IMG/VR virus record: IMGVR_UViG_3300008110_010000
Span: 155,356 to 219,355 of that record
Strand: one strand, 5' to 3'
DNA length: 64,000 nt
Source of the DNA: a virus
Shown here: positions 49,330-57,124 of the stretch, in pieces
Position numbering within the stretch: the first letter of the stretch is position 1
How the letters are laid out: every line of letters begins with the position of its first letter
Made by a program: the position numbers and the translations under genes
The notes under the pieces: generated by a model
Told to the model about the DNA's origin: nothing
Database searches by the model: none
What the model saw: only the letters and a program-made list of their open reading frames with translations

Positions 49330-49941
49330 ATGAAATATATCCGTTCATATGCTTTATATGAGAGTAGTTTGAAGATATTTGAAAAGTACGATTCTTCAAA
49401 ATACACTAAATATACTGGCCAGTCCGCCGAGCCTGGATGGCAGGATTGGATTTACAATTTTTTCAAAAGCATGCAAAGCAGATTTGAGGGGTTTGATCGT
49501 TTTTACCAAAGAGAGATAGCAGTAAAGAAAACTGGAGGTGGTGTAATAGACACCGGCATGGGATGGCTAATTGGAAAAACTGGATCTCTTGCTACTGAGC
49601 TAATGGCTAAAATATTTGAGCCAAATAAATTTGCTACTCTGACCGGTCAGGGTTTGCTTGCTCCAAAATCTCCTGCTGATGTGTCTGGAATTAAATCCGC
49701 TAAAGACGTTACTCCTGAGCATCATAGATTGCTGAACGATCAGTTTGTTAAAAACGATCTTCCCACAATTTCTAATGATGACCAAATGAAAGATTATATC
49801 TTTAATTACTATAAGAAAATAGGGGTTCCTCCTAATTATAATAAAGTTGCTGATGAAGTAGCTGCAACGTATGCAACCACATACTTTAACAATAAAAAAT
49901 CGCAAGGTATGCTCGCCCAGGGTTTACCTTCTACATTTTAA
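49330..49941 (+). CDS. Possible capsid-targeted internal protein
   Basis: A 203-residue protein of unknown function. It starts MKYIRSYALYESS, resembling T4 capsid-targeting leaders (MKTYQEFIAEA) that gp21 protease cuts after an (L/I)xE motif; here LYE. A mid-segment (about 75-95) is Gly/Ala-rich and helical (GMGWLIGKTGSLATELMAK). Its promoter element, the shared leader type with neighbouring genes and the lack of other homology suggest an internal head protein, but this is inference. The downstream gene starts 15 bases after its stop. Confidence 0.5.
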   Translation: MKYIRSYALYESSLKIFEKYDSSKYTKYTGQSAEPGWQDWIYNFFKSMQSRFEGFDRFYQREIAVKKTGGGVIDTGMGWLIGKTGSLATELMAKIFEPNKFATLTGQGLLAPKSPADVSGIKSAKDVTPEHHRLLNDQFVKNDLPTISNDDQMKDYIFNYYKKIGVPPNYNKVADEVAATYATTYFNNKKSQGMLAQGLPSTF

Positions 49942-49955
49942 TAGAAACAAAAAAA

Positions 49956-50222
49956 ATGAAAAAAATAACACAGATTCAAGAAAGCCTTAAGATAGAAAAA
50001 GCCAAGGTTATTTCCAAATTAGAGGAAACAAACAAATACCTAACTTTTGCAAAAGGCTATTACAAAAAGCATGGAGTATCTGGTCCTTTTGACGAGAAGT
50101 TTAAAAGTGACAAGAAAGCTCAAAAGAAATTTATGGATGACCTAGGTAAAGCTTGGGATGAGCACAAAGAAAAACATGGAATTGTAACCAGCTCAGAAAA
50201 GCCCTGGGGTAAGAAAAAATAA
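49956..50222 (+). CDS. Small Lys-rich protein, possible internal head protein
   Basis: An 88-residue protein with many Lys residues (about a quarter) and few hydrophobics. It begins MKKITQIQESLKIEKAK; IQE followed by S could be a prohead-protease cut site. Size and charge resemble the T4 internal proteins IPI-IPIII. It sits between genes with similar leaders. Confidence 0.5.
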   Translation: MKKITQIQESLKIEKAKVISKLEETNKYLTFAKGYYKKHGVSGPFDEKFKSDKKAQKKFMDDLGKAWDEHKEKHGIVTSSEKPWGKKK

Positions 50223-50226
50223 CCTA

Positions 50227-50655
50227 ATGATCGTAGATATTCTTTACCCCATAATCGAGCATTACATTGGAGATGGAGTAGCGGGGGTTAAAAGAGGACA
50301 TGATGAAGTTTCCTTTTTAACTATAATGGGTAAGGATGGTAGAATTGAAAAGAATGAAGAAGGCGATTGGGATTTGTTAGTAGAGGAGGAAAAAGTTGCC
50401 GAGATAGAGGATTCTTTATTTTCTATTTTCTGTGAGGCAAAGAAACAACCCCCAATAGATGTCTATTATAAAAAACTATTAAAAGTAAAAAGAAAAAAAC
50501 TAAATTATAGATCTAGCATTTTGGTAGAACAACTCGTTAAATCTTTGGAAATGCTAATGCTTAACATGGAAGTTAAATTGAAGAATCCAATAGCAATAGG
50601 ACCATTTTTAGTTTTTACTTCTATGGGAAGAAAAGACATTATCGTATTAAATTAA
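50227..50655 (+). CDS. Hypothetical protein (142 aa)
   Basis: A 142-residue protein I do not recognise. It has an acidic stretch (LVEEEKVAEIEDSLFSIF), a basic stretch (LLKVKRKKLNYRSS), and two helices. It begins 4 bases after the previous stop and ends 3 bases before the ligase/nucleotidylyltransferase gene, so it may be coupled to that enzyme. Confidence 0.55.
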   Translation: MIVDILYPIIEHYIGDGVAGVKRGHDEVSFLTIMGKDGRIEKNEEGDWDLLVEEEKVAEIEDSLFSIFCEAKKQPPIDVYYKKLLKVKRKKLNYRSSILVEQLVKSLEMLMLNMEVKLKNPIAIGPFLVFTSMGRKDIIVLN

Positions 50656-50658
50656 TAT

Positions 50659-56177: not shown

Positions 56178-56203
56178 AAACCCCCGGCTTTCGGGGGTTT
56201 TTT
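56178..56203 (+). terminator. Strong rho-independent terminator
   Basis: AAACCCCCG (56178-56186) and CGGGGGTTT (56192-56200) form a 9-bp stem with loop GCTTT, followed by a T-run to 56203. It closes the metallopeptidase-VWA-AAA+ module and is the strongest terminator in the window. Confidence 0.92.
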
Positions 56204-56224
56204 GTTTCCTTTCGGGTTTAAATT

Positions 56225-56236
56225 TGAATATATAAA
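56225..56236 (+). promoter_or_regulatory. Late-promoter-like GAATATATAAAA element
   Basis: GAATATATAAAA ends 11 bases before the ATG at 56248, with an A-rich leader, just after the strong terminator. This resets transcription for the next unit. Confidence 0.6.
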
Positions 56237-56247
56237 ATAAAAAAAGA

Positions 56248-56814
56248 ATGAAATTCATAAACAAATTTGGAGATCACTTTCCCAAGCCTGTAAATAATTT
56301 AAATAAAGTAAATGAAGATGCTGGTTATGGAAACGACTATTTTGCAGACGAAAAGGTTGAAAAATCTCAGCACTACTTCTTTAAAATTAGTGAGGGAGAC
56401 GAAGAGATTGGATTAATCTTAAAAATTGGAAAATTTTCTAAGTCTGGAGTTATCTCCGAGAATGAAAAAAATTACGGCGTGCTTCATTTAGAGATTATGA
56501 ATCCCGATGATATGGATGATTATTTAGTAAATGATAGTGAATACAGATCTAGGGAAGATGAAGGATTCTCCCTTTCAAACGAGGTATTAAGTCAGGCATT
56601 TTTTATTATTACCAAATCAATGGATAATTATTTACAAAAAAATCCGAAGGTTACTAAGTTTTATGATGAGATTCTAGAAAATCTTGGCATGGATAGAGAA
56701 GAATATTCAGATTTCATTTCCCCGAGAATCAGAACGTGGTCCAGGGGAAGATGGAAGATTCAGGAAGGAAATTCAGAGAAATCATTAATTTACACTAAGA
56801 CCTCACATGAGTAA
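56248..56814 (+). CDS. Hypothetical protein (188 aa)
   Basis: A 188-residue acidic protein of unknown function. The start MKFINKFGDHFPKPVNN, then NKVNEDAG, is similar in type to the capsid-targeting-like leaders nearby, with VNE before D at residues 21-24. The body has alternating strands (YFFKISEGDEEIGLILKIG) and a C-terminal helix pair. The 3' end overlaps the next gene by 8 bases. Confidence 0.55.
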   Translation: MKFINKFGDHFPKPVNNLNKVNEDAGYGNDYFADEKVEKSQHYFFKISEGDEEIGLILKIGKFSKSGVISENEKNYGVLHLEIMNPDDMDDYLVNDSEYRSREDEGFSLSNEVLSQAFFIITKSMDNYLQKNPKVTKFYDEILENLGMDREEYSDFISPRIRTWSRGRWKIQEGNSEKSLIYTKTSHE

Positions 56815-57124
56815 TCTTAAAAAATATAGCGAATTCATTAATGAATCATTAACACCGGTAATGTTTATGAGTGTTAAAAATGAATTGAAGAATTCGATTG
56901 TTAAATTCCTACACGAAAAAGGACAGGCAACTAGAAAGGAAATTTTAGAATTTGCCTCCACCCTAGGAGAGAATGGATCTGTTGTGGACAGAAGATGGAT
57001 CTCCAGAAATAAACAATTGATTAAGTGTTTGGTTTCAGAGGAAGGACCAAATCTTTATACCCTTACAAAATTGGGAAAAAGATTTGCCAAAAGTCTTTCG
57101 GTAAATGAAACAAAAAACCTTTAA
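56807..57124 (+). CDS. Winged-helix-like protein with capsid-targeting-like leader
   Basis: A 105-residue protein. After the leader MSNLKKYSEFINES (INE followed by S; close to T4 MKTYQEFIAEA), residues about 25-100 look like a winged helix: ELKNSIVKFLHEKGQATRKEI, then RRWISRNKQLIKCLV and YTLTKLGKRFAKSL, where the last is a typical wing-to-helix ending. A packaged and injected DNA-binding protein is possible. The promoter upstream serves the previous gene. Confidence 0.55.
   Translation: MSNLKKYSEFINESLTPVMFMSVKNELKNSIVKFLHEKGQATRKEILEFASTLGENGSVVDRRWISRNKQLIKCLVSEEGPNLYTLTKLGKRFAKSLSVNETKNL

Follow-up and report, generated by a model that had tools for sequence, protein, structure and literature searches.

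A candidate capsid-targeting leader on unrelated proteins of a T4-like phage and its likeness to a scaffold repeat

The N-terminal sequence that directs proteins into the capsid of phage T4 was reportedly described by Mullaney and Black in 1996. According to two reports that cite this work, it is found on the internal proteins (IPs) IPI, IPII and IPIII and on Alt, together with the gp21 protease and the gp22 core (PMC9026906, PMC3012670). Residues 4 and 7 of IPIII control targeting, and residues 8 and 10 control processing (PMC9026906). Comparable N-termini are described here for a T4-like phage represented by a 219-kb record (IMG/VR record IMGVR_UViG_3300008110_010000; 219,355 bases), bases 155356-219355 of which form the window analyzed, 64,000 nucleotides long. 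Attention had been drawn to its 49-57 kb region by a first-pass annotation; the rest of the record was also read and the N-termini of all genes across it were inspected. Genes are named by their start positions, in window numbering for 49330-57150 and 59279 and in record numbering for 905-71201 and 125457-142018.

Capsid-targeting sequences are known as a kind from T4; the scale, the cargo and the identity of the leader core with a scaffold repeat are new here. The likeness to T4 comprises a short N-terminal propeptide on unrelated bodies, a cut site after Glu, a gp21-family protease in the genome, and aromatics spaced like T4 residues 4 and 7, then hydrophobic-x-Glu, an arrangement that is exact in eight genes. 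The differences concern the number of genes (about 20 here and about 44 in the related phage LR756500, whereas T4 has three IPs and Alt), the spacing, which varies in several leaders, the fusion of the protease to a scaffold of leader-core repeats, and the cargo, with a MoxR AAA+ protein and a metallopeptidase-like partner among it. N-terminal residues of phage P1 DarB likewise suffice to send a protein into the head, but the P1 signal was proven by truncation and reporter fusion, whereas here a consensus with a cleavage site is known from sequence alone (PMC9024508). In SPN3US and phiKZ the prohead protease also cuts after Glu, and the proteins are packaged and ejected; their sites are A-x-E or S-x-E and several propeptides have about 125 residues, whereas the leaders of this phage have 9-23 (PMC5694885).

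Leader sequences in this genome and its relatives

The shared N-terminus is very probably a T4-type capsid-targeting propeptide, by which proteins would dock in the prohead, be trimmed by a gp21-type protease and have their bodies kept in the head. It is a propeptide-like leader of about 10-20 residues, present on about 20 genes with otherwise unrelated bodies, with the consensus M(K/R)x(I/L)xx(F/Y)xx(F/Y)(I/V/L)xE↓(S/A/D/G/N), where the arrow marks the predicted cut. The number rises to about 22 when four leader-type genes near the protease and the major capsid protein (126212, 132644, 133762 and 134628) are counted in. The first-pass annotation had read such leaders at 49330, 49956, 54533, 56248 and 56807 and likened them to the T4 sequences. 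All five were recovered as written and the likeness was borne out, both by agreement with the T4 targeting residues and by enrichment at N-termini; its list for the region was nevertheless incomplete, a sixth leader at 52725 having been overlooked. The genome-wide search that it had advised yielded the gene set described here.

Because bare cleavage sites prove little, a motif set beforehand from T4 mutagenesis, [FYW]xx[FYW][ILVMF]xE, was used, its expectation being the internal density in the same proteins. Eight N-termini of this genome carried it, against 0.71 expected (Poisson 8.5e-7), those of 54533 and 56807 among them; the corresponding figures were 22 against 1.95 (Poisson 3e-16) in the 462-kb relative LR756500 and 3 against 0.75 in T4 itself. 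No N-terminal copy, against 0.30 expected, was present in Flavobacterium phage MaF61, where an S77 protease was not detected. A profile trained on LR756500 alone matched six genes of this phage, compared with a mean of 0.2 in shuffled or internal controls, and gave 17.0 bits for 56807 and 5.3 bits for 54533.

The features of the region are as follows (window numbering).

49310-49318, + strand: GATATATAA element, putative late promoter element upstream of 49330
49330-49941, + strand: leader protein of 203 amino acids, body without convincing family; leader 49330-49362, MKYIRSYALYE↓S
49956-50222, + strand: protein of 88 amino acids with a short leader, no convincing family; leader 49956-49982, MKKITQIQE↓S
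50227-50655, + strand: gene for 142 amino acids, no leader
50659-52662, + strand: fusion of RNA ligase-like and cytidylyltransferase-like parts (Pfam/PHROGs), no leader
52705-52713, + strand: GATATATAA element, putative late promoter element upstream of 52725
52725-53570, + strand: DUF2201_N metallopeptidase-like protein (PF13203, 2.5e-22); leader 52725-52775, MGKLSNFENSQKSPLLE↓N
53577-54497, + strand: VWA half of the DUF2201 protein in its own open reading frame (PF09967, 5e-13), no leader
54533-56161, + strand: MoxR-type AAA+ ATPase; leader 54533-54571, MPSIKKFDQYVNE↓D, on an N-terminal extension
56248-56814, + strand: leader protein of 188 amino acids, no convincing family; leader 56248-56316, MKFINKFGDHFPKPVNNLNKVNE↓D
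56807-57124, + strand: predicted winged-helix protein of 105 amino acids, no convincing family; leader 56807-56845, MSNLKKYSEFINE↓S, with the exact T4 core spacing

Exact T4 spacing is not present in 49330, 49956, 52725 and 56248, for which the leader call rests on orthology. Leaders were retained in up to six diverged orthologs, the anchors and the Glu being kept while adjoining residues change. Orthologs of 49330 start with MKHIDSFKIFE↓A, MKHLKPYELLE↓S or MRHLQSFELLE↓S, preserving M(K/R)(H/Y)(I/L)xx(Y/F)xx..E↓(S/A), and residues 14-25 diverge. Those of 49956, the weakest leader judged by motif alone, have MKKVSQIQE↓ followed by S or N. The leader of 52725 was recognizable in three of four relatives, as MSKISNWSQFKNSNPVLE↓N once and as MSKLVKWKDYSKIYE↓D twice, and orthologs of 54533 carry MARIKKFSDYVNE↓D and MQKIKNFNTFINE↓D. 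Ortholog leaders of 56248 include MKFIKDFKAYKINE↓E, the window copy having a 9-residue insertion within the leader with both ends intact. Orthologs also support the leader of 56807, and that of 125457 has a recognizable form in eight relatives. The VWA half, 53577, lacks a leader in every relative compared.

A selection of the further leader genes of the record is given below (record numbering).

905: leader MEIKRFKAFLNE↓M
58107: leader MEIITRFLDFVNE↓S
62492-63286 (L004:2492-3286): CHAP-domain endolysin-like protein, leader MRKIQSFSQFVSE↓A
63322: leader MKHLKGYNEISE↓S
68645: DUF2201_N protein of a second MoxR/DUF2201 copy, leader MRKIRNFAEYGILLE↓N
69618: AAA+ protein of the second MoxR/DUF2201 copy, leader MKRIKGFQEFNRLNE↓A
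71201: internal start, leader MKRILDFTGFINE↓G
125457: leader MFRIQNFKDWSLNE↓D
133762: beside capsid genes, leader MKKYSEFISESHMNE↓G
142018: leader MSLRHIKSFSSLFE↓S

Since the CHAP-domain protein bears the leader, a cell-wall hydrolase may be packed in the head.

By capsid protein, LR756500 was the nearest named record (45%), followed by Prevotella Lak phages (about 40%) and then by Tenacibaculum phages and PAU (about 32%); the host of PAU was reassigned to Sphingobacterium (PMC3738902). In LR756500, 44 genes from 36 body families start with MKYIxEYEEFxNE. Pfam searches with 32 of them identified six leucine-rich-repeat proteins, a DUF2201 metallopeptidase/VWA protein, a polynucleotide kinase 3'-phosphatase and single matches to ATP-grasp, GNAT and linker-histone-like families. 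One expanded family of this phage (13446, 14298, 180972, 198758, 313382, 331856 and 411169) has the leader on all listed members except 411169; several leader-bearing paralogs have bodies 47-53% identical, and the leaderless one beside them agrees with what is expected of a detachable tag. PAU has 22 genes in 22 families starting with MKTLxxLYE; its leader proteins gp142 and gp154 bear the deposited name 'internal capsid protein', and gp152 that of 'scaffolding'.

Other shared N-termini were observed in this clade. Five unrelated bodies of Tenacibaculum phage pT24 (e.g. 43075, 71192 and 173362) begin with MxxISxYLEEKI, possibly a local form of the leader. Prevotella phage Lak-A2 (code 15) had no clear version of the T4-type core; six unrelated bodies (e.g. 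105455, 113970 and 321625) share a different start, MNKxIKxLxESLFDD, possibly a tag of its own.

Protease, scaffold repeat and upstream element

A gp21-like protease, which the first-pass annotation had suggested looking for elsewhere in the genome, was found at record positions 128801-130042 as a Peptidase S77 (PF03420, 2.3e-8, over the curated cut-off; phrog_207, 2.9e-37), with gp23 at 130806-132545 (PF07068, 2.2e-40). Residues aligned with His85 and Ser140 of T4 gp21, the catalytic residues of this family, do not vary among five phages. The protease is fused to a scaffold-like region, to which attention was directed by a position-specific scoring matrix trained on the five window leaders and T4. 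Two relatives have 14 copies of YxxY(L/I/V)xE in this region, at a spacing of 14 residues with one step of 28, and LR756500 shares this register of 14 residues, its consensus being weaker. In this phage a tandem core (YSEYLAE) recurs every 14 residues, eight copies being visible ahead of a run of 18 N (record 130018-130035, L007:10018-10035) that breaks the repeats and splits the protease-scaffold frame; the gene is intact in relatives G005 and G006.

The core of the repeat matches that of the leaders (KKYSEFISE, KKYSEFINE). As it has both T4 targeting aromatics, beyond the cleavage residues, the leader is proposed to imitate one scaffold repeat, an inference from sequence. Whether docking would use the scaffold part, with its 14-residue repeat holding YxxY(L/I)xE and the leader as a detached repeat, we regard as an even question.

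An upstream element was also associated with leader genes. The pattern TATATAAA was found in the 60 bases preceding 8 of the 22 leader genes and 10 of the 208 others in this genome (p 5e-5). It had been picked after inspection there and was then repeated in a relative, the result for which is therefore the test: GATATATAA preceded 6 of 17 leader genes against 11 of 253 (p 2e-4). In that relative, the genes with a shorter GATATATA include the protease-scaffold gene and several resembling virion genes. The element, a putative promoter, is compatible with late expression.

The MoxR and DUF2201 pair

The AAA+ identity that had been assigned to one leader protein was confirmed, 54533 being MoxR-type (PF07728, 4e-8; phrog_1297, 2e-50), with its P-loop domain adjoining the DUF2201_N and DUF2201 VWA domains. 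The AAA+ match begins at residue 142 of 54533 and at position 26 of PHROG 1297, which places the leader on an extension of about 115 residues at the N-terminus. Two copies of the pair are present in the genome (54533/52725 and 69618/68645), the AAA+ and DUF2201_N proteins of both bearing leaders, and the DUF2201 protein of LR756500 carries that phage's own leader version. PHROG 1314 is labeled 'HNH endonuclease'; its members here (window 52725-54497) match DUF2201 metallopeptidase-like and VWA domains, and the label looks wrong.

The same domain pair, side by side, has been described in jumbo phages and proposed to aid virion assembly as a chaperone, a proposal that has no packaging component in the part of the report setting it out (PMC7824862). 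The present case differs in that the AAA+ protein and the metallopeptidase half bear leaders and that a second leader-bearing copy exists. What the leader adds is a predicted address of the pair in the prohead interior.

Proposed pathway and competing explanations

Leader-bearing proteins would bind the prohead core through the leader, late in infection, perhaps by way of the scaffold part of the protease-scaffold fusion. During head maturation the S77 protease would cut after Glu, very likely at the residue marked, and the trimmed bodies would remain alongside the DNA in the head. Both the MoxR AAA+ protein and its metallopeptidase-like partner have the prohead address and could work as a chaperone/protease module, either within the core or once ejected. 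Of this prediction, prohead targeting and cleavage form the well supported part, and we lean slightly towards at least some bodies being carried into the host along with the DNA, while others have a role in head assembly only. More tentatively, at somewhat less than even chances, one copy of the detached 14-residue unit may cause any protein to assemble into the core like a piece of scaffold, and would be the lineage's general tag for loading and delivering proteins by the dozen, among them the MoxR/metallopeptidase module and the leucine-rich-repeat proteins of the 462-kb relative.

The core of the T4 prohead holds pure assembly proteins besides injected ones, and a T4-type leader alone cannot tell the two apart: it places a protein in the prohead core, which by itself does not imply injection. 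The suggestion of the first-pass annotation that the 49-57 kb region represents a set of injected effectors was therefore not adopted. It was too strong in other respects as well: no leader is present on 50227, 50659, 53577 or 57150, the majority of leader genes map outside the region (at 0.9-1.5, 58-72 and 125-142 kb of the record), and the AAA+ protein is one partner of a pair with a proposed assembly role.

It is conceivable, though rather unlikely, that the leader proteins are only prohead core or assembly factors, like T4 gp67/gp68 or chaperones, which are trimmed and have no job in the next host. The four leader-type genes adjoining the protease and the major capsid protein would fit this explanation, as would the chaperone role put forward for the MoxR/VWA pair (PMC7824862). 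However, bodies differ widely among related phages (CHAP endolysin-like, nucleotidyltransferase-like, leucine-rich-repeat, polynucleotide kinase, GNAT, ATP-grasp), and delivered accessory proteins therefore fit better than a fixed assembly core. Sharing an N-terminal tag is a generic means of localizing many proteins, and this one might send them to another phage-made place, such as the tail, the membrane or a replication compartment; this is very improbable, as the tag agrees with T4 targeting residues, ends in a Glu site, repeats within the scaffold and is present on head genes and on the PAU 'internal capsid' proteins. Least of all, with a nearly negligible probability, could the likeness be a product of chance or composition (Lys- and Ile-rich starts in an A+T-rich genome plus frequent Glu), an explanation already disfavoured by the motif and profile controls and by conservation of the leader through divergence, even though the bare site is weakly enriched, certain N-terminal pair clusters are ordinary signal peptides and the window-trained matrix gave no clear N-terminal enrichment.

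Several approaches were set aside or restricted. That matrix, anchored on Glu, failed among its top 10-20 windows in held-out genes because leader length varies; the bare site, hydrophobic-x-E followed by a small residue, was found at 41 N-termini against 26 in shuffled sequences, so that the site by itself is no evidence; a loose gapped grammar (14 against about 4) was too permissive as evidence; and N-terminal pair counts, inflated by signal peptides in some genomes, were not used alone.

Several observations weigh against a capsid-targeting propeptide. The leaders of 49956, 64486 and 56248 are off the T4 spacing and were called from orthology or resemblance alone, and orthologs of 133762 point to a cut at the second NE, not at the T4-like core. 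In relative L138 the ortholog of 52725 has no clear leader and the start of the AAA+ protein is ambiguous. Nor is the leader uniform across the clade: the protease is present in PTm1 and pT24, yet neither shows the T4-type core clearly, and the consensus of PAU differs, the exact core not being found at its N-termini; the PAU names are deposited labels whose basis was not seen.

If the capsid-targeting reading is true, the packaged cargo of large Bacteroidota phages would be readable from sequence by one N-terminal tag, yielding candidates for infection-delivered proteins among hundreds of unknown genes. It would also give a testable answer to how the T4 leader finds the core, namely by imitating a scaffold repeat, and the tag would be a natural tool to load phage heads for non-enterobacterial hosts with proteins of choice.

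The winged-helix-like nature that had been noted for one leader protein was supported by the structure model of 56807, which has winged-helix topology with a predicted local distance difference test (pLDDT) score of 63 overall, the body being mostly at 56-85 and the leader disordered. Its PDB matches were weak, mainly to small winged-helix regulators and other DNA-binding proteins, the best being MarR/ArsR-type regulators with no E below 6e-3. The model of 49330 (pLDDT 51) was too poor for use.

Three neighboring genes deserve mention. The product of 50659-52662 is RNA ligase-like in its N-terminal part and cytidylyl/nicotinamide mononucleotide-adenylyltransferase-like in its C-terminal part, and relatives conserve it well (61-68%). 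Window positions 57150-57335 encode a 61-residue match to histone H1-like Hc1 (PF07432, 1.6e-23), also present in the 462-kb relative; it has VE↓S at residues 11-13, yet the whole Hc1 profile aligns from residue 1, and the gene was therefore left out of the leader count. At 59279-59746, an internal ATG gives MQTNPVNE↓GCGCGKK and a relative has MMEHQKINE↓DCGCG; the NE is kept with no aromatic core, and this N-terminus is possibly a degenerate leader.
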